Assembly (NCBI GenBank): GCA_003220335.1
Contig: QHSB01000054.1
Location: 1-39,084, forward strand
From: Candidatus Rokuibacteriota bacterium
GTDB lineage: Bacteria; Methylomirabilota; Methylomirabilia; Rokubacteriales; CSP1-6
Length of the DNA stretch: 39,084 nt
Direction of reading: 5' to 3'
Shown here: in pieces, positions 7,773-38,003 of the stretch
How the letters are laid out: each line of letters begins with the position of its first letter
Numbering within the stretch: position 1 is the stretch's first letter
Made by a program: the position numbers and the translations under genes
Notes under the pieces: generated by a model
Seen by the model: the letters and a program-made list of their open reading frames with translations, nothing else
What the model was told of the DNA's origin: nothing
The model's database searches: none

Positions 7773-9328
7773 CCGAACATGCCGCCCATGCGCGCGCCGG
7801 CCACCCGGTTGATGGCGAGCACGCTGACGGCGGCCACGACGATCAGGATCACGCCCAGCGCCGCCGCCTCGTTGGCACTGCCTGCGATGTAGAAGGCGAA
7901 GATGCCGACGGGGATCGTCTCCCAGCCGCCGAGCGACAGAAAGAGCACGGCCGAGGCCTCCTGCAGCGACGTCATGAACGAGAACAGCGAGCCGACGAGC
8001 ACGCCGCGCCAGATGAGCGGCAGCGTGATGTCGCCGAACGAGCGGAGCCCGCGCGCGCCCACGCTCGCCGCCGCCTCCTCCATCGAACGGTGCACGAGGA
8101 GCAGCGACGCGTACGAGCCGCGCACGGTGTACGGCAGCCGGCGCACGGCCAGCACGATCGGCAGGATGATCCAGAAGCTGGTAAGCGGCACGCCGAGCCA
8201 CGGCAGCTCGACATGGAACGCGCGGATGTAGGCGATGCCGATGGCGGTGCCGGGCACGGCGAGGATCAGCGTGTTGAGCCCGTCGAGCGTGTCGCGGCCG
8301 GGCAGGCGCGTGCGGGCGAGGACCCAGGCGATCGGCACGCCGATGACGATGCAGAGCAGGACGGCGAGGCCCGCATAGAGGAAGCTGTTCACGATGTACT
8401 TCGGCGTCTCGACGATCACGCGCTCGAGGAACGTCACGGCCGCCGTCGCCCCCAGCGGGCCCAGCCGCCGCCGGGGCACGCGCGAGTAGGACAGCGAGGA
8501 GTAGTCCTTGATCGCGACGTAGCGCCGCGCCGCCACCAGGAAGACGACGGCCAGCGCCACCATGAGCGCGGAGATCACCAGCCCCATGCGGAACAGCCGG
8601 CGGTCGACGAACTGCACGATGTTGAGGTAGGCCTGCGAGGCCAGCAGGTCGTGGACGCCCAGCACCAGCGGCGTCGCGAAGTCCGAAAACGTCCAGATGA
8701 AGACGAGCAGCGCACCCGCCACGTAGCCCGGCGTCGTGAGCGGCAGCGTGATCGTGGAGAGCTTGCGCCAGCCGCGCGCGCCGACGGATTCGGCCGCCTC
8801 CTCCAGCGAGGGATCGATCTTGCTCAGCGCGTCGACCACGTTGAGCGTGATCATCGGGAAGAGGTGCAGCGTCTCCACCAGCAGCACGCCGTGCACGCCG
8901 TAGACGAAGTTGATCGGCTTGGCCAGCCCGAACCAGTCCTCCAGCACCATGTTGACGGTGCCCGCCTTGCCCATGATGAAGGTGAAGCCCAGCACGCCGA
9001 CGAGCGGCGGCGAGATGATCGGGATCAGCGTGAGAAAGCCGAAGAGGCCGCGCCCGGGAAAGTCGTAGCGCACCAGCAGCAGCGCGATCGCGAAGCCGAG
9101 CACGGAGGTGGCCGCGACGGTGCCGGCGCCGAGCAGCAGCGAATTCCAGAGCGATCGCCGGTAGAAGGCGTCGGCCCCGAACGCCGCGAAGTTCTCGAGC
9201 GTCAGGCGTCCCGCCTCGTCGCTGAACGCGTCGTAGAACACGCGCAGCAGCGGGTAGACGAGGAAGACCGCCAGGAACGCCCAGATCAGCGCGATGCCGA
9301 GGGCCGGCAGCGCCCTGTCCCTCTTCAC
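7769..9328 (-). CDS. ABC transporter permease, fused two-module FbpB/ThiP-like
   Basis: About 519 aa from the GTG at 9328 (VKRDRALPALGIALIW); two permease EAA regions (EEAAESVGARGWRKLSTITLPL and EEAAASVGARGLRSFGDITLPL). GTGA overlap with the ATPase gene. Confidence 0.9.
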   Translation of the reverse strand: MKRDRALPALGIALIWAFLAVFLVYPLLRVFYDAFSDEAGRLTLENFAAFGADAFYRRSLWNSLLLGAGTVAATSVLGFAIALLLVRYDFPGRGLFGFLTLIPIISPPLVGVLGFTFIMGKAGTVNMVLEDWFGLAKPINFVYGVHGVLLVETLHLFPMITLNVVDALSKIDPSLEEAAESVGARGWRKLSTITLPLTTPGYVAGALLVFIWTFSDFATPLVLGVHDLLASQAYLNIVQFVDRRLFRMGLVISALMVALAVVFLVAARRYVAIKDYSSLSYSRVPRRRLGPLGATAAVTFLERVIVETPKYIVNSFLYAGLAVLLCIVIGVPIAWVLARTRLPGRDTLDGLNTLILAVPGTAIGIAYIRAFHVELPWLGVPLTSFWIILPIVLAVRRLPYTVRGSYASLLLVHRSMEEAAASVGARGLRSFGDITLPLIWRGVLVGSLFSFMTSLQEASAVLFLSLGGWETIPVGIFAFYIAGSANEAAALGVILIVVAAVSVLAINRVAGARMGGMFG

Positions 9329-27633: not shown

Positions 27634-27687
27634 ACTCCGTGCACCTACGGAGTGACTTCGCTCTGCCCCGCCTCTATACTCCGGAGT
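27634..27687 (+). promoter_or_regulatory. Candidate promoter with overlapping inverted-repeat operator(s) for the stressosome locus
   Basis: GTGACT (27652-27657) N17 TATACT (27675-27680); inverted repeat ACTCCGT-N6-ACGGAGT (27634-27653) touching the -35; perfect palindrome ACTCCGGAGT (27678-27687) on the -10. Confidence 0.55.
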
Positions 27688-27729: not shown

Positions 27730-28611
27730 ATGGGTCAGAAGACGATGATGCGGCTGGCCACGATCTTGGAACGTCACGAGAAGGACGTCCTCAACGAGTG
27801 GGTCGACCAGCAGCTGGCGGCCGTGACGCGTCGCCGCGACCTGGTCAACGACCAGGAGCTGCGCGAGGACTCGCGGCGCTTCCTCGCGATCTTTCGCCAG
27901 GCCGCACAGAACGAAAGTGGAGCCGACGCCGACTGGGGCGAGGCCCGCGCCTTCCTCGAGGACCTCTCGCGCACCCGCGCGCGTCAGGGCTTCTCGCCGT
28001 CGGAGACGGCGACCTTCGTGTTCTCCCTCAAGCAGCCGCTCTTCGCGCGGCTGCGGCAGGACCTCGGCCGCGATCCGGACGCCCTCGCCGGCGAGATGTG
28101 GAGCACGTCGGTCGCCCTCGACCGCCTCGGGCTCTACACCACCGAGGTCTACCAGAAGAGCCGCGAGGAGGTCATCGTCCACCAGCAGCGCGAGATGCTG
28201 GAGCTGTCCACGCCCGTCGTCCAGCTCTGGCAGGGCGTGCTCGGCCTGCCGCTCATCGGAACGCTGGACAGCGCGCGGACGCAGGTGGTGATGGAGAATC
28301 TGCTGCGGAGCATCGTGGAGACGGGCGCCACCATCGCCGTCATCGACATCACCGGCGTGCCCACCGTGGACACGCTGGTCGCCCAGCACCTGCTCAAGAC
28401 GGTGGCGGCGGCGCGGCTGATGGGCGCCGACTGCATCATCAGCGGCATCCGGCCCCAGATCGCGCAGACGATCGTGCACCTCGGGGTCGACCTGAACGCG
28501 GTCACGACGAAGGCCACGCTGGCCGACGCCTTCGCCGTTGCCCTGCAGCGCACGGGCTTCGCCGTGACCCGCGCCGCCTCCGCCAGGTCCGCGTCGCCCG
28601 CGAAGCACTGA
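27730..28611 (+). CDS. rsbR: RsbR-type stressosome co-antagonist (RsbRD_N-like N-terminus + STAS)
   Basis: STAS: LELSTPVVQLWQGVLGLPLIGTLDSARTQVVMENLLRSIVETGATIAVIDITGVPTVDTLVAQHLLKT...ISGIRPQIAQTIVHLGVDLNAVTTKATLADAF; both canonical phospho-Thr contexts (VDT and AQT) present. Confidence 0.92.
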   Translation: MGQKTMMRLATILERHEKDVLNEWVDQQLAAVTRRRDLVNDQELREDSRRFLAIFRQAAQNESGADADWGEARAFLEDLSRTRARQGFSPSETATFVFSLKQPLFARLRQDLGRDPDALAGEMWSTSVALDRLGLYTTEVYQKSREEVIVHQQREMLELSTPVVQLWQGVLGLPLIGTLDSARTQVVMENLLRSIVETGATIAVIDITGVPTVDTLVAQHLLKTVAAARLMGADCIISGIRPQIAQTIVHLGVDLNAVTTKATLADAFAVALQRTGFAVTRAASARSASPAKH

Positions 28612-28618
28612 GCCGCGG

Positions 28619-29017
28619 ATGGACCGGATCCCGATCATCAAGATGGCGGAGTTCCTCCTGGTCTCCATCCAGGTGGACATGCACGACAAGCTCGCGCTCA
28701 CGCTGCAGGACGATCTCACCAACCAGATCGTCAAGACTCACGCCCGCGGCGTGCTGATCGACATCTCGTCGCTGGAGATCGTGGACTCCTTCATCGGGCG
28801 CATGCTCGCCAACATCGCCGCCATGTCGAAGGTGCTCGACGCGGCGACGGTGGTGGTCGGCATGCGGCCGGCCGTCGCCATCACGCTCGTCGAGCTCGGC
28901 ATGTCGCTCACCGGCGTGCGGACCGCGCTCAACGTCGAGCGCGGCATGGACCTCCTGCGCGACGCGCTGGGGGCGCCGGCCGCCGTGGACGGCGTGAATG
29001 CGAACGCTCAGGACTGA
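28619..29017 (+). CDS. rsbS: RsbS-type STAS antagonist
   Basis: IPIIKMAEFLLVSIQVDMHDKLALTLQDDLTNQIVKTHARGVLIDISSLEIVDSFIGRMLANIAAMSKVLDA; phospho-Ser context IVDSF conserved. Confidence 0.93.
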   Translation: MDRIPIIKMAEFLLVSIQVDMHDKLALTLQDDLTNQIVKTHARGVLIDISSLEIVDSFIGRMLANIAAMSKVLDAATVVVGMRPAVAITLVELGMSLTGVRTALNVERGMDLLRDALGAPAAVDGVNANAQD

Positions 29018-29402
29018 AAAGCTGCCGCTCGCGAGCTCGGACGACGTCGTGGCCGTCCGGCAGGCCGTTCGGATGCAGGCGCAGGGCCTCGGCTTCAGCC
29101 TCGTGGACCAGACGAAGCTCGTCACGGCGGCCAGCGAGATCGCGCGCAACACCGTCCTCTACGGCGGTGGCGGCATCGTGGAGATCGAGGTGCTCGAGAA
29201 CGCGCCGCGCCGTGGCGTGCGATTGACGTTCGAGGACCACGGCCCCGGGATCGGGGATCTCGCGCAGGCCATGCGCGACGGCTACACGACCGGCAGCGGC
29301 CTGGGACTCGGCCTCGGCGGCGCCAAGCGGCTCGTGAGCGAGTTCGAGATCCGCTCCCAGCCGGGCACGGGCACGTGGGTACGGCTGGCGCGATGGATAT
29401 GA
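28998..29402 (+). CDS. rsbT: RsbT-type serine/threonine kinase (switch kinase)
   Basis: DDVVAVRQAVRMQAQGLGFSLVDQTKLVTAASEIARNTVLYGGGG...FEDHGPGIGDLAQAMRDGYTTGSGLGLGLGGAKRLVSEFEIRSQPGTGTWV; overlaps the rsbS end. Confidence 0.94.
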   Translation: MRTLRTEKLPLASSDDVVAVRQAVRMQAQGLGFSLVDQTKLVTAASEIARNTVLYGGGGIVEIEVLENAPRRGVRLTFEDHGPGIGDLAQAMRDGYTTGSGLGLGLGGAKRLVSEFEIRSQPGTGTWVRLARWI

Positions 29403-30295
29403 CCCGGGACCTCCGCTTCGAGGTGGACCACGCGAGCCACGTGGCCGACGCACGCCAGACCGCGCTCGACCTGGCCGCGCGGCTGGGCTTCGACGAGGAA
29501 TGCGGGGGCCGGCTCGCGCTCGTCGTCACGGAGGCCGGCACGAACATCGTCAAGCACGCGCGCGGCGGCCAGCTTCTCGTCCGCGTGCTCACCGCCGGCG
29601 ATACGCCGCTGATCGAGGTCCTGGCCCTCGATCGGGGGGCCGGTATCGCCGACGTCGCCCGAAGCCTCGCCGATGGCTATTCGACGGCCGGCAGCCCGGG
29701 CACGGGGTTCGGCGCGCTCTACCGCCTGTCGAGCACGTTCGACATCTACTCGCGCGCGGGTGCCGGCACCGCCGTCCTCGCGCGCGTGGGCGCGCGGCGA
29801 ACACCGGCCGCCGCCCCCAGGGGGCTTCGCACCGAGGGGCTGGCCATCGCCAAGCCCGGCGAGGACGTCTGTGGCGACGCGTGGGCGGCGCAGCCGAGGA
29901 TCGACGGCACGATGATCCTGGTCGCCGACGGGCTCGGCCACGGCCCGGGCGCCGCCGAGGCCTCGCGCGCGGCCGTCGCCGCCTTCCTCGGCTCGCGTGA
30001 CCCGTCGCCCGCCAACCGCCTTCAAGACGTGCACCACGCGCTGCGCAGCACGCGCGGGGCGGCCGCCGCCATCGCGGACATCGATGCTGCGCGCGGCGTC
30101 GTACGCTTCGCCGGGCTCGGCAACATCGCGGGCGCCATCGTGACTCCCGAGACCACGCGCCAGATGGTGTCGCGCGACGGCACCGCGGGCGTGAGCGCGG
30201 CGCGCCTGCCGGAGTTCAGCTATCCCTGGTCGCACGACGCCGCGGTCATCCTCTACTCCGACGGTCTCACCAGCCACCTCTCGCTGTCGGCGTGA
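29393..30295 (+). CDS. RsbX-like protein: anti-sigma-type HATPase fused to SpoIIE/PP2C phosphatase domain; C-terminus appears shortened
   Basis: HATPase: VVTEAGTNIVKHARGGQLLVRVL...LDRGAGIADVARSLADGYSTAGSPGTGFGALYRLSS; PP2C: DVCGDAWAAQ...ILVADGLGHGPGAAEASRAAVAAF...YSDGLTS then stop. Confidence 0.87.
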   Translation: MDMTRDLRFEVDHASHVADARQTALDLAARLGFDEECGGRLALVVTEAGTNIVKHARGGQLLVRVLTAGDTPLIEVLALDRGAGIADVARSLADGYSTAGSPGTGFGALYRLSSTFDIYSRAGAGTAVLARVGARRTPAAAPRGLRTEGLAIAKPGEDVCGDAWAAQPRIDGTMILVADGLGHGPGAAEASRAAVAAFLGSRDPSPANRLQDVHHALRSTRGAAAAIADIDAARGVVRFAGLGNIAGAIVTPETTRQMVSRDGTAGVSAARLPEFSYPWSHDAAVILYSDGLTSHLSLSA

Positions 30296-32433
30296 GCCTG
30301 CCGCTGCTGTCGGTGACGGTGTCGCGCGAGCACGACGTCGTCGGCGGCCGCCAGCGCGCCCGCCAGCTGGCCGCGCTGCTCGGCTTCGACCTTCAAGACC
30401 AGACGCGGATCGCCACCGCGGTGTCCGAGATCGCGCGCAATGCCGTCGGCTACGGCGGCGGCGGGCGGATCGACTTCTCCGTGGAAGGCCAGACGCGGCC
30501 CCAAATTTTCACCATCCGCGTCTGGGATCGCGGTCCCGGCATCGCCGACCTCGACACGATCCTGAGCGGCCGCTACCAGTCCTCCACGGGCATGGGCCTC
30601 GGCATCATCGGCGCCAAGCGGCTCATGGACGCCTTCGACATCGACTCGGCGCCGGGCCGCGGTACGAGCGTGATCTTGAGGAAGCTCATGCCGCGGCGCG
30701 CCGACATGGTGACGCCGGCCGCCGCCGCCCGGATCGCCGATTCGCTGGCGAAGCGGACGCCGCGCGACGCCGTCGAGGAGGTGCAGCAGCAGAACCAGGA
30801 GCTGCTGCGGATGCTCGAGGAGCTGCGCCGGCGGCAGGACGAGCTGGTGCGGCTCAACGCCGAGCTGGAGGACACGAACCGCGGCGTGGTGGCGCTCTAC
30901 GCGGAGCTGGACGAGAAAGCCGACCATCTACGCCGCGCCGACGACCTGAAGTCGCGCTTCCTGTCGAACATGAGCCACGAGTTCCGCACGCCGCTGAACT
31001 CGATTCTGGCGCTCTCGCGACTGCTCCTCGATCACGCCGACGGGCCCCTGAGCACCGAGCAGGCGACGCAGATCGGCTTCATCCGCCGCGCCGCCGAGGA
31101 CCTGTTCGAGCTGGTCAACGATCTGCTCGACACGGCGAAGATCGAGGCGGGCAAGATTGTCATCCGCCCCGTCGAGTTCACGGTGGAAAACCTCTTCGGC
31201 GCGCTGCGCGGCATGCTGCGGCCGCTGCTGGTCAACGAGTCGCTGATCCTCGCCTTCGACGACGTCAGCGCGCTGCCGGCGCTGCACACCGACGAGGCGA
31301 AGGTCTCGCAGATCTTGCGCAACTTCATCTCGAACGCGCTCAAGTTCACGGAGCGCGGCGAGGTGCGCGTGAGCGCGCGCCCGAGCGAGGACGGCCGCGC
31401 GGTGGTGTTCGCCGTGGCCGACACCGGCATCGGCATCGCGCCGGAGGACCACGAGGCGATCTTCCAGGAGTTCGCCCAGGTCGAGAGCCGGCTGCAGCGG
31501 GTGGTGAGGGGCACGGGGCTGGGCCTGCCGCTCACCCGAAAGCTCGCGCACCTGCTCGGCGGCTCGGTGGCCGTGCACAGCACACCGGGGGTCGGCTCCA
31601 CGTTCTCGGCGACGATCCCGCTCGTCTATGCGCCGCCGGCGACCACGCCGGGGGAGACGCCGGTGACCGTGGAGTGGCGGGTGGCGCCGGGCAAGGTGCC
31701 GATTCTCCTGCTGGAGGACAACCTGGAGACCGTGCTCGTGTATCAGACGCTGCTGCGCCACACGGAGTTCCAGCTGCTCCACGCGCGCTCGGTGGGCGAG
31801 GCGCGACGCGCGGTGTCACAGGTCGAGTTCCGCGCCGCCATCCTCGACATCCTGCTGCGCGGCGAGGACGCCTGGGCCTTCCTGGCCGAGCTCGGACGCG
31901 ACGAGGCGACGAAGAGCCTGCCCGTTCTCGTGGTCACCGACGTCGACGACCACAGCAAAGCGCTGGCCCTGGGCGCGCGCGCCTTCGCGCAGAAGCCGGT
32001 GGACCGCGACTGGCTCCTCGAGTCGCTGCGCGCATTCACCACCGGGCGGCGCCGGCGCCAGGTCCTCATCATCGACGACGATCCCGTGTCCCGGTACCTG
32101 CTGCGGGGCGTGCTCCGCGATTTTCCGTGCGCCGTCGTGGAGGCGTCGAACGGCGCCGAGGGGGTGGCGATGGCCCGGCGCGACCGACCCGACGTGATCT
32201 TCTGCGACGTCGTGATGCCGGGATTCTCCGGTCTCGACGTCCTGCGCGAGCTGTCGTCCGATCCGGCGACGCGCGACATCCCGATCGTCATGAACACGGC
32301 AAAGGTGTTGACGTCCGAGGAGCGCCGGGAGCTCGCCCGCGCCGCGGCCGTCCTCTCCAAGGAGTCGTACGCCTCGGGCGGGGCGGCGGCGGAGATCCAC
32401 AAAGCGCTCGAGAAAGTAGGGTTCGCGGCGTGA
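30292..32433 (+). CDS. Hybrid sensor histidine kinase with N-terminal RsbT-like HATPase: [RsbT-like HATPase]-coiled coil-HisKA-HATPase_c-REC-REC
   Basis: N-term RQRARQLAALLGFDLQDQTRIATAVSEIARNAVGYGGGGRI...GMGLGIIGAKRLMDAFDIDSAPGRGTSV; HisKA FLSNMSHEFRTPLNSILALSRLLL; HATPase NFISNALKFTERGEV...GTGLGLPLTRKLAHLLGG; REC1 ILLLEDN...AILDILLRGEDAW...QKPVD; REC2 VLIIDDDP...IFCDVVMPGFSGLD...LSKESY. GTG start overlapping the previous stop. Confidence 0.92.
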   Translation: MSLPLLSVTVSREHDVVGGRQRARQLAALLGFDLQDQTRIATAVSEIARNAVGYGGGGRIDFSVEGQTRPQIFTIRVWDRGPGIADLDTILSGRYQSSTGMGLGIIGAKRLMDAFDIDSAPGRGTSVILRKLMPRRADMVTPAAAARIADSLAKRTPRDAVEEVQQQNQELLRMLEELRRRQDELVRLNAELEDTNRGVVALYAELDEKADHLRRADDLKSRFLSNMSHEFRTPLNSILALSRLLLDHADGPLSTEQATQIGFIRRAAEDLFELVNDLLDTAKIEAGKIVIRPVEFTVENLFGALRGMLRPLLVNESLILAFDDVSALPALHTDEAKVSQILRNFISNALKFTERGEVRVSARPSEDGRAVVFAVADTGIGIAPEDHEAIFQEFAQVESRLQRVVRGTGLGLPLTRKLAHLLGGSVAVHSTPGVGSTFSATIPLVYAPPATTPGETPVTVEWRVAPGKVPILLLEDNLETVLVYQTLLRHTEFQLLHARSVGEARRAVSQVEFRAAILDILLRGEDAWAFLAELGRDEATKSLPVLVVTDVDDHSKALALGARAFAQKPVDRDWLLESLRAFTTGRRRRQVLIIDDDPVSRYLLRGVLRDFPCAVVEASNGAEGVAMARRDRPDVIFCDVVMPGFSGLDVLRELSSDPATRDIPIVMNTAKVLTSEERRELARAAAVLSKESYASGGAAAEIHKALEKVGFAA

Positions 32434-32579
32434 CGACCGAGACCGCATTCAAAATCCTCAACGTCGATGACTACCGGGCGGCGCTGTACTCGCGGAGCAA
32501 GATCCTGCGCCAGGCTTCGAGGTGTGCAAGCAGATCAAGGGGGATCCCGACCTCGCGGTCATCCAGGTCGTCCACATGA
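32430..32579 (+). pseudogene. N-terminal receiver remnant of the following kinase, out of frame with it
   Basis: GTG at 32430 (GTGA overlap) gives MTTETAFKILNVDDYRAALYSRSKILRQA, then the frame runs to a stop; the continuation FEVCKQIKGDPDLAVIQ is in a different frame from about 32513. Confidence 0.75.
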
Positions 32580-34237
32580 CCGCGTCCTCCGCCGGCACCG
32601 ACGACCAGGTGCGCGGCCTGGACCAGGGTGCCGACGGCTACCTGATCGAGCCGCTCGAGCCGAAGGTCCTGCTGGCGACCGTCCGCTCGCTCGAGCGCGC
32701 GTACCGCGCCGAGGCGAAGGTGCGGACGGCCGCCTGGCACTGGGAGCAGACCTTCGAGGCCATCAGCGACGGCGTCTGTCTGCTCGACGCCGACGGCCGC
32801 ATCCTGCGCGCCAACGCCGTGTTCGCGCGCCTCGCCGGCATCGAGAGCGGCGCGCTCGCCGGCCGCCGGCTGCGTGACATCATCCCCGGGCTCGACACCA
32901 ACGTGGGGCCCGCATCGCGCGTGATCTACGAGCTCGAGCGCGGCGGACGCTGGCTACGCATGAGGATCGACCCCGTCCGGGACGCCGACGGTGGCGCCGA
33001 GGGCGCCGTCTGCATCGTGGCCGACGTGACGGACGCGAAGCTCGCCGAGCGCGCGCGGCAGGACCTCCTGCGCAGCGAGCGGGTGGCCCGCACCTCGGCC
33101 GAGGCGGCCAATCGCGCAAAGGACGAGTTCCTGGCGGTTGTCTCGCACGAGTTGCGAACGCCGCTCACCGCGATGCTCGGCTGGAGCGGCATGCTGCGCT
33201 CCGACGATCTTGCCACCGAGAAGGCGCGGCGCGCCTTCGACGTCATCGTTCGCAACACCCGGATGCAGGCGCAGCTGGTCGACGATCTCCTCGACGTCTC
33301 GCGGATCGTGTCCGGCAAGCTCAGCCTCGAGATCGGCGTCGTGAACGTCGCGCGAATCGTGGACGGCGCGCTCGACGCCGTGCGCGGCGTCGCCCTCGCC
33401 AAGGGCATCGAGGTGCGGGCGAGCGTCGAGGGGACGCTCCGGTCGATCGCCGGCGACGCCGCCCGCCTGCAACAGGTCGTCTCGAACCTGGTCTCCAACG
33501 CCGTCAAGTTCACCCCGAAGGGCGGCCGGGTCGACGTCGCCGTGCGCGCGGAGCCGGACGCGGTCACGATCGAGGTGCGCGATACCGGCATCGGCATCGC
33601 GCCCGAGGTCCTGCCCCGAATCTTCGAGCGATTCCAGCAGGGCGACGCGTCGAGCCGCCGCTCGCAGGGCGGACTCGGCCTCGGCCTGGCCATCGTGCGT
33701 CACCTCACCGCGATGCATCACGGCAGCGTGGTGGCCGCGAGCGAAGGCCCGGGGAAGGGCGCGACGTTCACGCTCCGCCTGCCCGCCGAGCCTCCTCCGG
33801 CGACGAGCCAGGCCGCCGGGGACCGGTCACCGCGCTCCGCGACGTCGATGGAGCCGGACCTGACGGGCGTCCGCGTCCTTCTCGTGGACGACGAGAGGGA
33901 CACGCTCGAGCTCTTCGCGACGGCGCTCGGGCAGTGGGGGGCGACCGTCGTGAGCGCCGCCGACGCCTCCGCCGCGCTGCGCGCCTTCGAGCGCGAGGTG
34001 CCCGACGTGCTCGTCAGCGACATCGGCATGCCCGGCATCGACGGCTACGATCTCATCCGGCAGGTCCGCGCGCGGCCCGCCGCGCAGGGCGGTCAGGTGC
34101 CGGGCATCGCGCTGACCGCGTACGCAATGGGCACCGACTCGGGACGGATCGCCGACGCCGGCTACCAGCGCCACGTGACAAAGCCGCTGGACCCCCTGGT
34201 CCTCGCCCGCGCCATCGCCGACGTCGTCCGCGGCTGA
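32522..34237 (+). CDS. PAS-containing hybrid sensor histidine kinase (partial REC-PAS-HisKA-HATPase_c-REC), 5'-disrupted
   Basis: 571 aa; C-terminal part of a receiver (MTASSAGTDDQVRGLDQGADGYLIEPLEP), PAS (FEAISDGVCLLDADGRILRANAVFARLAG), HisKA FLAVVSHELRTPLTAMLGW, HATPase NLVSNAVKFTPKGGRV...GLGLGLAIVRHL, REC VLLVDDERD...VLVSDIGMPGIDGYDLI. Confidence 0.88.
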   Translation: MCKQIKGDPDLAVIQVVHMTASSAGTDDQVRGLDQGADGYLIEPLEPKVLLATVRSLERAYRAEAKVRTAAWHWEQTFEAISDGVCLLDADGRILRANAVFARLAGIESGALAGRRLRDIIPGLDTNVGPASRVIYELERGGRWLRMRIDPVRDADGGAEGAVCIVADVTDAKLAERARQDLLRSERVARTSAEAANRAKDEFLAVVSHELRTPLTAMLGWSGMLRSDDLATEKARRAFDVIVRNTRMQAQLVDDLLDVSRIVSGKLSLEIGVVNVARIVDGALDAVRGVALAKGIEVRASVEGTLRSIAGDAARLQQVVSNLVSNAVKFTPKGGRVDVAVRAEPDAVTIEVRDTGIGIAPEVLPRIFERFQQGDASSRRSQGGLGLGLAIVRHLTAMHHGSVVAASEGPGKGATFTLRLPAEPPPATSQAAGDRSPRSATSMEPDLTGVRVLLVDDERDTLELFATALGQWGATVVSAADASAALRAFEREVPDVLVSDIGMPGIDGYDLIRQVRARPAAQGGQVPGIALTAYAMGTDSGRIADAGYQRHVTKPLDPLVLARAIADVVRG

Positions 34238-35086: not shown

Positions 35087-36286
35087 CTACGACAAGAGCA
35101 GGCGGGGCAGCGCGCGCGGCGGCACATAGTCGCCGATCACGCCGAGGAGCGTGTCGAGCAGGCGCGGCCGGGCCGCGAGCCACCGCGCGGCGAGATTCGC
35201 CAGACGACGGCGGCCGATCAGCGCCTGCAGCGCGCGCGTCACGCGCTCCTTGTCGGCGAAGGCGGCGCGGCGGGCCCGTCCGTAGGCGGCCAGGGCCGCC
35301 GCCGAGACGTCATCGGCGCGCAGCGCGGTGACCAGCGTGTCCGCCGCCAGCTCCGCGGAGCGCAGCGCGGTGAAGATCCCCTCACCGGTGAACGGGTCAT
35401 AGAAGCCCGCCGCGTCGCCGACGAAGAGCACGCCGCCCTCGCGCGGCGGCGTCACGCGATACGCGAGCGGTCCCATCGACGAAAGCGGCGCCACGCGCCG
35501 TGCGCAGGCGAGCCGCCGCGCCAGGTGCGGCAGCTGCTTCACCCGCGCGGCGAAGAAATCCTCGAGGCGCGACCGCCACGGCACCGCATGGGCAAGCGGC
35601 ACCACGAGGCTGAGGTTGACGCGGTCGGGCGCGAGCGGGTTGAGGATCGCGTAGTCGGGCGGGTCGACGAAGATCTCTCCGACGTCGCGGCAGTCCGGCA
35701 CGCCGACGACGTAGGTGACGAGGGCCATCCGGGCGAGCCGATGCGGATGGCGACAGCCGAGCGCGTGCGCGATCGCCGAGGCGCGGCCGTCGGCGGCCAC
35801 CACGACGCGCGCGCGCATCTCCACCCGGGCGCCCGCGCCGTCCACGCCGACCACCCCCACCACGTCGCCGTGCTCGACCACGACGTCGGTGACCCGCACC
35901 CCGAGGTACAGGTCCACCGGCTGCGCGCGCACGCGGTCGAGCAGGGCCCCGTCGAGCGTGGCGCGGGAGACGCCGATCGCCTGCTCTCGATACGGGCGGA
36001 AGCCGCCGACGGCGCCGTAACGGCCGGTGAGCACGGTGCCATCGGGGGCGGTGATGCGCATGCCGGCCAGCGCGACGGCGCCCCCCGCGTCGAGCACCTT
36101 CAGCGCACCGAGCCGGTCGAGGACGCGGCCGGCCTCGGGGCTCAGGTACTCGCCGCAGACTTTGGGCCGCGCGCGCGGGCCGCGCTCGAGCACGGTCACG
36201 GCCAGCCCCTGCTCAGCGAGCAGGATGGCCGTGGCCGCGCCGGCGGGCCCGGCGCCGACGACCAGGACGTCGGCGGCGCGCATCAT
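35087..36286 (-). CDS. FAD-dependent oxidoreductase, geranylgeranyl-reductase/RebH-UbiH-like
   Basis: ADVLVVGAGPAGAATAILLAEQGLAVTVLERGPRARPKVCGEYLSPEAGRVLDRLG; GDAAGFYDPFTGEGIFTALRSAELAAD. Confidence 0.9.
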   Translation of the reverse strand: MMRAADVLVVGAGPAGAATAILLAEQGLAVTVLERGPRARPKVCGEYLSPEAGRVLDRLGALKVLDAGGAVALAGMRITAPDGTVLTGRYGAVGGFRPYREQAIGVSRATLDGALLDRVRAQPVDLYLGVRVTDVVVEHGDVVGVVGVDGAGARVEMRARVVVAADGRASAIAHALGCRHPHRLARMALVTYVVGVPDCRDVGEIFVDPPDYAILNPLAPDRVNLSLVVPLAHAVPWRSRLEDFFAARVKQLPHLARRLACARRVAPLSSMGPLAYRVTPPREGGVLFVGDAAGFYDPFTGEGIFTALRSAELAADTLVTALRADDVSAAALAAYGRARRAAFADKERVTRALQALIGRRRLANLAARWLAARPRLLDTLLGVIGDYVPPRALPRLLLS

Positions 36287-36981
36287 GTGGCCTCCACCAC
36301 GAGCCGCGCGAGCCACGGATAACGCGTGACCGTCGCCCGCGTGACGCCGGCGGCGCCGAACAGGGCGCCCAGCTCCGAGGGCGCGTAGGCGCGCCGCACG
36401 GAGAGCGGCCCGTCGTGGCGCGACATCGGGTGCACCGGCAGCAGCCGCGTGGCGAGCCAGACGAGACCGAGCGCCAGCGGCGTGCGGGCGAGGTCGTTCA
36501 CCACCACCCGGCCGCGGCACGCGCGACGCATCTCGCGCAGCGCCGGCACGGCCGCGTCGGGCTCGAGGTGATGGAGCGTGAGCCCCGCGTGCACGACGTC
36601 GGCCGCGCCCGCCGCCAGCGGCAGCGCGGTGGCGTCGGCGCGCAGGACCGCGATGTCCGGGTACGCGGCGCACGCCGCGATGGCCAGTCGTGCCGTCTCC
36701 GCATCGTCATCGACGACGAGCACGCGCACGCGTCGCCCCGCGCGGCGCGCCCAGCGCACCACGCGCCGCGCGAAGGCACCGTCGCCGCCGCCCACGTCAA
36801 CGATGCGCAGCGTGCGCTCGGGCGGCGCGTGCGCCGCGACGCGCCGCACCCGCGCGAGCGACAGCGCGTGCCCTCCGAACCAGGCGTTGAGACGGTCGAG
36901 GTCGGCGAGGGTGGCGGCGAGATCGGCCGGAGGCACACGGCCGTCGAGATACTCGCGCGCGCCCTCCGCCCGCCGCATCAC
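36283..36981 (-). CDS. Class I SAM-dependent methyltransferase
   Basis: LRIVDVGGGDGAFARRVVRWARRAGRRVRVLVVDDDAETARLA...VLRADATALPLAAGAADVVHAGLTLHHLEPDAAVPALREMRRACRGRVVVND. Confidence 0.9.
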   Translation of the reverse strand: MMRRAEGAREYLDGRVPPADLAATLADLDRLNAWFGGHALSLARVRRVAAHAPPERTLRIVDVGGGDGAFARRVVRWARRAGRRVRVLVVDDDAETARLAIAACAAYPDIAVLRADATALPLAAGAADVVHAGLTLHHLEPDAAVPALREMRRACRGRVVVNDLARTPLALGLVWLATRLLPVHPMSRHDGPLSVRRAYAPSELGALFGAAGVTRATVTRYPWLARLVVEAT

Positions 36982-38003
36982 CAGCGGAGCAGCGCGCCTT
37001 CGGCCGCGAAGCCGGGGCCGAGGCCGATCATGAGTCCCCAGTCGCCCGGCACGGGATGCTCGAGGCGCAGCAGGCGCTCGAGGACGAAGAGGATGGTCGC
37101 CGAGGACATGTTGCCCTGCTCGCGCAGGACCGCGCGTGCGTGAGCCATCTGGGCGTCAGTGAGGTCCAGCAGGTCGCGCGCGCGGTCCAGCACGCGGCGG
37201 CCCGCGGAGTGCAGCACCCAGTGCGCGATGTCGTCGCGCTTGAGGCCCTGTGTCTCCATGAGCGCGCGCGCCATCTGACCCATCATCGAGGCCCCGATGC
37301 GCCGGACCTCCTTGGAGAGCACGACGCGCGGCCGGCCGCCCGGATACTCGAACCCCATCGCGGGCAGATGCTCGGAGCTGAACAGCGTGCGGTGCCCGAT
37401 GATCGCGGGCCCACGCGCGTCGTCGCCGCCGAGCGCCACCGCGCCCGCGCCGTCGGCGAAGATGGCGTGAGCGACGGCGCTCTCGAGCCGGTCGTCGAGG
37501 AAATACGCGGCCGAGCAGATCTCGACGGCGGTCACGAGCGCGCGGTGGCCGGGGAACGTCTGCAGGTGATTCCACGCCTGCTGCAGCGCGACCATGGCGG
37601 AGGCGCAGCCGGTGTCGCCCACGTGCACGCGCTGGACCTCTGCGCGGCAGCCGAGGCGGGCGACCAGATGGGCGTCGAGGCTCGGCGTGAGCCGTCCCGT
37701 GCACGTCGTGGTGGCGATGAAGTCCACATCCTCCGGCGTCCAGCCCGCCCGCGCCAGCGTTGCGCGGGCGGCCGATTCCGCCAGCGCCAGCGCGCCCTCG
37801 CAGAACCGCGCGTTGAGCTCGTCCACCGTCTCGTTCGGCGTGAAGCGCGCGGGGTCGATCCAGAGGTGACGGCCCTCGATGTCGCTGGCCGCGAAGAACC
37901 CGCGCCGGCGCTCGTCGGCATATCCGGCGAGCGCCAGGATCTGCGCCTGCGTGTAACGATAGGGCGGCACGGCGGTGGCAACGGCAGCGATGCGGGGCGT
38001 CAT
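36978..38003 (-). CDS. Type III polyketide synthase (chalcone/stilbene synthase-like)
   Basis: Catalytic Cys in VGDTGCASAMVALQQA; catalytic His in HWVLHSAGRRVLD; catalytic Asn in GNMSSATILFVLERLL; C-terminal GLGPGFAAEGALLRW. Confidence 0.9.
   Translation of the reverse strand: MTPRIAAVATAVPPYRYTQAQILALAGYADERRRGFFAASDIEGRHLWIDPARFTPNETVDELNARFCEGALALAESAARATLARAGWTPEDVDFIATTTCTGRLTPSLDAHLVARLGCRAEVQRVHVGDTGCASAMVALQQAWNHLQTFPGHRALVTAVEICSAAYFLDDRLESAVAHAIFADGAGAVALGGDDARGPAIIGHRTLFSSEHLPAMGFEYPGGRPRVVLSKEVRRIGASMMGQMARALMETQGLKRDDIAHWVLHSAGRRVLDRARDLLDLTDAQMAHARAVLREQGNMSSATILFVLERLLRLEHPVPGDWGLMIGLGPGFAAEGALLRW

Follow-up and report, generated by a model that had tools for sequence, protein, structure and literature searches.

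A stressosome operon of a Candidatus Rokuibacteriota genome in which an RsbT-fused histidine kinase is the probable output

In Bacillus subtilis and Listeria, the stressosome proteins RsbR, RsbS and RsbT act within an RsbRST-UVW-SigB system, and RsbT activates RsbU through the ordering of a coiled-coil linker (PMC12143880). In the RsbRSTX stressosomes of Vibrio vulnificus and others, sensor kinases lie immediately downstream of the RSTX core, and a sigma factor is absent (Heinz et al. 2022, PMC9237108). Histidine kinases bearing an RsbU_N domain are found in stressosome operons (PMC12143880, PMC9237108), and in these, RsbT-type control of the effector via a helical linker is expected (eLife 2025, PMC12143880), while the V. 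vulnificus study did not detect an interaction between RsbT and the kinase VvD1 (PMC9237108). In Deinococcus radiodurans, the MP1 operon DR_RS15570-15595 encodes RsbR, RsbS, RsbT, T.PP2C, an RsbT-HisKA-HATPase-REC protein and a REC-HisKA-HATPase protein. Mapped by gene order, these genes apparently correspond to the old tags DR_B0024-DR_B0029, of which DR_B0026 has been named RsbT (PMC7143949), and co-regulation of the kinases DR_B0028/0029 with the operon of an antisigma factor-regulation system has been presumed (PMC6501615, citing Makarova 2001).

Here, we analyzed a 39,084-nt contig of a Candidatus Rokuibacteriota genome (the window), where Pfam assigns each of six plus-strand genes at 27730-34237 as RsbR, RsbS, RsbT, T.X, K1 or K2 (Table 1). 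The successive junctions are +7, -20, -10, -4 and -3 nt, and such spacing indicates one operon; the start of T.X is uncertain within 29375-29393. An earlier note on this DNA had described RsbR, RsbS and RsbT followed by an HATPase-PP2C fusion and kinases, all on the plus strand with tight junctions, and both Pfam and the coordinates agree with that description, as do the Pfam matches for RsbR, RsbS and RsbT with its STAS and RsbT assignments. Farther along the window, at 35087-38003, genes for a methyltransferase and an FAD-dependent oxidoreductase come after a type III polyketide synthase-like gene, likely forming a small biosynthetic cluster.

Table 1. Features of the stressosome operon and its upstream region (window coordinates)
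Feature	Coordinates	Strand	Description	Basis
Candidate operator/promoter	27634..27686	+	Inverted repeat, second palindrome and weak sigma-70-like site	
RsbR	27730..28611	+	RsbRD_N sensor domain and STAS, Thr sites VDT/AQT	Pfam PF14361 E 2.9e-28, PF01740 E 1.2e-13
RsbS	28619..29017	+	Lone STAS, IVDSF Ser site	PF01740; phmmer E 6.4e-32 to RsbS 6jhk
RsbT	28998..29402	+	Stand-alone switch kinase; N, G1 and G2 boxes complete	PF02518/PF13581; motifs, tree
T.X	29393..30295	+	RsbT/RsbW-like HATPase_c_2 fused to SpoIIE-type PP2C (RsbX-like feedback phosphatase)	PF13581 + PF07228
K1	30292..32433	+	RsbT-like HATPase_c_2, HisKA, HATPase_c and two Response_reg	Pfam
K2	32431..34237	+	Open frame from GTG 32522: PAS, HisKA, HATPase_c and Response_reg	Pfam; relatives L053, L055, L057, L059

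The predicted stressosome comprises a sensor-STAS RsbR with its Thr residues, a single-STAS RsbS with its Ser and an RsbT with N, G1 and G2 boxes. RsbR can be aligned over its full length to RsbR of solved stressosomes, with VDT and AQT matching 7b0u, and in the corresponding alignment the DSF of RsbS matches 6jhk/6qcm. These sites are kept in related operons of the same type, the exceptions being AHT in L099 and AQA in L053, where the second Thr context of RsbR (8218-9090, minus strand) is altered; the proposal that the RsbR VDT/AQT and RsbS IVDSF contexts are intact is thus borne out by both alignment with solved stressosome proteins and conservation. The PP2C gene lies directly after RsbT, as in an RSTX module, with the metal-binding motifs GD.W, DGLGHG and SDGL conserved and an extra N-terminal HATPase_c_2 domain. 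In the window, the RsbT-like domains of RsbT, T.X and K1 all retain the E, N and D residues and the nucleotide-binding box glycines, with a single exception at a position that is Ser/Thr in all X-type domains.

Upstream of RsbR, whose ATG is preceded by a GAGGAG ribosome-binding site, we found a perfect inverted repeat, ACTCCGT-N6-ACGGAGT, at 27634-27653 and a second palindrome, ACTCCGGAGT, near 27677. The first is the sole such repeat in the window at ≤2 mismatches, against a chance expectation of 0.11, and the palindromes overlap a weak sigma-70-like site at 27652-27680. The repeats could possibly serve as an operator, and the predicted RNA folding of this stretch is ordinary (z -1.3).

Compared with the described systems, the window shares its RsbR, RsbS and RsbT core and Ser/Thr contexts with B. 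subtilis and Listeria, but RsbU, RsbV, RsbW and SigB were not found in its assembly. Unlike the Vibrio-type RSTX modules, its RsbR sensor is RsbRD_N rather than a globin, and its phosphatase has an RsbT-like domain. The kinases in the survey of Heinz et al. carry RsbU_N domains or none (PMC9237108), whereas K1 has an RsbT-like domain; thus, compared with the RsbU_N-kinases, K1 lacks RsbU_N and has the RsbT domain itself covalently attached. A Pfam search of both K1 and K2 found no RsbU_N (PF08673), which argues against a hidden copy in K1. The D. radiodurans operon matches in all six genes and their order but has one K1 receiver instead of two and a K2 that lacks PAS and the terminal receiver.

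Well-known bacteria such as D. radiodurans thus have this six-gene layout as well, and the suggestion that the gene complement is distinctive is not supported: D. radiodurans MP1, Caballeronia and others share both gene order and fusions. When 57 genomes of the same family and 38 others of the phylum were surveyed with the K1 N-terminus as query, the RsbT-K1 fusion was present in 11 of the former, across 8 genera, and in none of the latter. In a broader sample of 388 genomes, the same family alone matched K1 at E 1e-36, a filter that divergent cases may escape, and a K1 scan of genome contigs returned unrelated kinases only. The R-S-T-T.X-K1 operon is conserved in the relatives wherever the contig reaches, and K2 is present in most family copies. 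Among plasmid proteins, K1 was matched over ≥96% of its N-terminal 450 residues in Caballeronia (55%), D. radiodurans (50.5%) and others. The same operon occurs in Deinococcus, Caballeronia, Sphingomonas, Paraburkholderia and Nonomuraea, with variation in the receivers and K2. A second stressosome type is also found in the phylum as RSTX loci, at L066 (10279-13065) and in L064, L069 and L071; by Pfam on the L066 genes, RSTX is followed there, in the same family as the window, by an RsbU_N-PAS-HisKA_3 kinase and NarL-type regulators.

A tree of 57 RsbT-like domain sequences resolved the K1-T domains (support 100/99), the X-T domains (100/100) and, from operons of this type, the stand-alone RsbT (100/99) as clades that each span phyla. 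These three separate clades indicate that the triple set is ancient and exclude a recent RsbT duplication within the lineage. The T, K1-T and X-T of the window all pair with G003, which belongs to another genus, and K1 is 58.5% identical to that of G001 from its own genus (g1) versus 63.6% to that of genus g2, while G002, also of its own genus, has no K1 copy. This patchy inheritance suggests exchange or differential loss within the family.

K1 is composed of an RsbT-like domain (residues 1-134), a helical linker (~157-228), HisKA with His229, HATPase_c and receivers with Asp519 and Asp639. E46, N50, D79, H229, D519, K568, D639 and K690 are invariant in an 11-way alignment, and E46/N50/D79 and the G-box residues of the RsbT domain are present in 15 of 16 sequences. 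A single-sequence AF2 model of K1 1-450 has one continuous helix at 157-247 with pLDDT mostly 60-93, while the folded domains in this alignment-free model are of low confidence (mean pLDDT 50 overall). The linker carries a motif, ELE(D/E)TN(R/Q)GV(V/L)ALYAELD, that is conserved across phyla, although Paraburkholderia D15 K1 lacks it or has a shortened form, and among plasmids every record with the linker plus HisKA segment at ≥66% identity encodes a close RsbS as well. The K1 proteins of Xanthomonas vasicola and Variovorax are short HisKA-HATPase proteins that start almost at the conserved linker and lack the RsbT domain, with a stand-alone RsbT adjoining. Since fused and unfused forms of the same RsbT-K1 pair exist, these arrangements suggest that RsbT-type domains act on the K1 linker helix. 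The Nonomuraea K1 has a degenerate RsbT domain. In Caballeronia, K1 (L093 7001-8749) keeps the linker and kinase, and its RsbT-like domain has no G1 box, so catalysis by this domain is not always needed; here it is apparently a non-catalytic adapter.

From the gene order, the domains, the intact catalytic and phosphorylation residues, the lack of a detectable sigma switch and the conservation across phyla, we infer that this stressosome, with its RsbR/RsbS scaffold, RsbT kinase and RsbT-PP2C reset phosphatase, probably signals through the histidine kinase K1, with RsbT-type domains acting on the linker, and not through RsbU-RsbV-RsbW-sigma. In resting cells, the stand-alone RsbT and the RsbT domain fused to K1 would be held on the RsbR/RsbS core, the latter presumably by docking on RsbS. 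Stress sensed at the RsbR N-domain would lead to phosphorylation of the RsbR Thr and RsbS Ser residues and the release of the RsbT-type domains, which could then order the helical linker before the K1 HisKA, as the likely switch point, and turn K1 on. T.X would strip the phosphates and reset the core, while the K1 signal may pass to its own receivers, K2 and, as a presumed final target, response regulators encoded elsewhere. Counting against this scheme are the undetected RsbT-VvD1 interaction in V. vulnificus (PMC9237108), the lost G1 box of the Caballeronia domain, the shortened or absent linker motif of Paraburkholderia D15 K1, the damaged K2 and the lack of a close NarL-type ortholog. More tentatively, the RsbT domain of K1 may itself be a genuine ligand of the stressosome, so that K1 would compete with RsbT and T.PP2C for the RsbR/RsbS core, which would hold the kinase and let it go.

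Among the alternatives, the one that survives best, although we consider it rather unlikely, is activation in trans, in which the released stand-alone RsbT binds the K1 linker as it does RsbU and the K1 RsbT-like domain serves for dimerization or as a pseudo-partner instead of docking on the stressosome. The Xanthomonas and Variovorax kinases without an RsbT domain, the Caballeronia domain without G1 and the RsbT-linker precedent with RsbU (PMC12143880) would all fit such a scheme. However, the catalytic residues of K1-T are strongly conserved in the family of the window, Deinococcus and Sphingomonas, and in the tree K1-T lies nearer to RsbT than to the RsbW-like domain of T.X, as expected if an RsbS-like partner is still handled.

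The K1 RsbT domain could also be an extra kinase for RsbR/RsbS, in which case the two-component system would deliver a second signal to the stressosome, and the output would lie elsewhere. Its ATP-binding motifs are intact, and the K1/K2 receivers and PAS could serve as inputs, but the literature treats the downstream kinases of comparable operons as outputs, and the STAS, SpoIIE and SigBFG searches revealed no other RsbT target (RsbV, SigB or an RsbU-type phosphatase) in the genome; we therefore regard this reading as improbable.

K2 is damaged in the window. Intact K2 proteins of relatives have a REC-PAS-HisKA-HATPase-REC architecture, and the natural K2 start is GTG 32431, which overlaps the K1 stop. 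DNA and protein comparison with the intact L053, L055, L057 and L059 revealed that ~109 nt are lost after ~32513 (2 nt in the window versus 111 in L057) and the reading frame is interrupted, with a short GGC repeat at the break (window 32431-32580). The open frame from 32522 thus begins inside the N-terminal receiver, and the phosphoacceptor Asp is gone. The two hybrid kinases named in the earlier note are supported in that both K1 and K2 have HisKA, HATPase and receiver domains, but the first receiver of K2 is broken. Little credence is due to the view that the whole system is decaying, with K2 a pseudogene, the output regulator gone and the locus doing little. The K2 frameshift and deletion, the absence of a NarL-type ortholog from the genome and the uneven holdings of the same genus (G002 without K1, G001 with K1 and without K2) are what it would predict; on the other hand, all genes besides K2 are intact, with their active sites conserved, the rest of the operon persists without K2 in G001, Sphingomonas and Paraburkholderia, and misassembly of a metagenome bin of 743 contigs may account for the break.

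The preferred reading, output through K1, does not amount to a phosphorelay. A NarL-type regulator lies upstream of RsbR in five relatives, as orthologs in four (62-73% identical) and as a different type in the fifth, but this genome has no close ortholog (best match, 45%), which argues against such a regulator as an obligate output, and there is no response regulator gene at the locus. An Hpt-based phosphorelay is ruled against by the absence of a free Hpt protein from this genome, where Hpt domains occur in two CheA-type kinases only, although the draft assembly may hide one. Since Hpt is confined to CheA-type kinases and an ortholog of the NarL-type regulator is lacking, the term phosphorelay is unearned, and kinase output is safer. 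The proposal of a phosphorelay in place of a sigma switch thus stands in its second half, as no sigma switch is detectable, and not in its first, for want of a free Hpt or cognate output regulator in the genome.

The assembly searched for a sigma partner switch is a 5.5-Mb draft of 743 contigs (95% complete, 7% contamination). Its only STAS domains are those of RsbR and RsbS, it has no SpoIIE phosphatase besides T.X, and no SigBFG-type sigma factor was found above the cut-off; other HATPase_c_2 matches above the cut-off lie in frames of at least 322 aa, as expected of histidine kinases. The absence of RsbU, RsbV, RsbW and sigma factor genes reported for the locus therefore extends genome-wide by these searches, and the sigma/anti-sigma pair named as evidence to the contrary was sought in the draft without a STAS, SpoIIE or SigBFG candidate. 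Although a fragmented draft leaves some room, the lack of a third STAS, a second SpoIIE or a SigBFG match and the length of the other HATPase_c_2 frames argue against a switch in trans and make a conventional sigma partner switch elsewhere in the genome highly improbable as the real output.

If the K1 RsbT domain is indeed a stressosome ligand, Ser/Thr partner switching would feed directly into His-Asp signaling, with no RsbU-like adaptor. The presence of this operon type in the tractable D. radiodurans makes SigB-independent stressosome output testable, and the natural fused and unfused RsbT-kinase pairs, together with the conserved linker at which switching likely occurs, offer a concrete test of a SigB-free signaling route.
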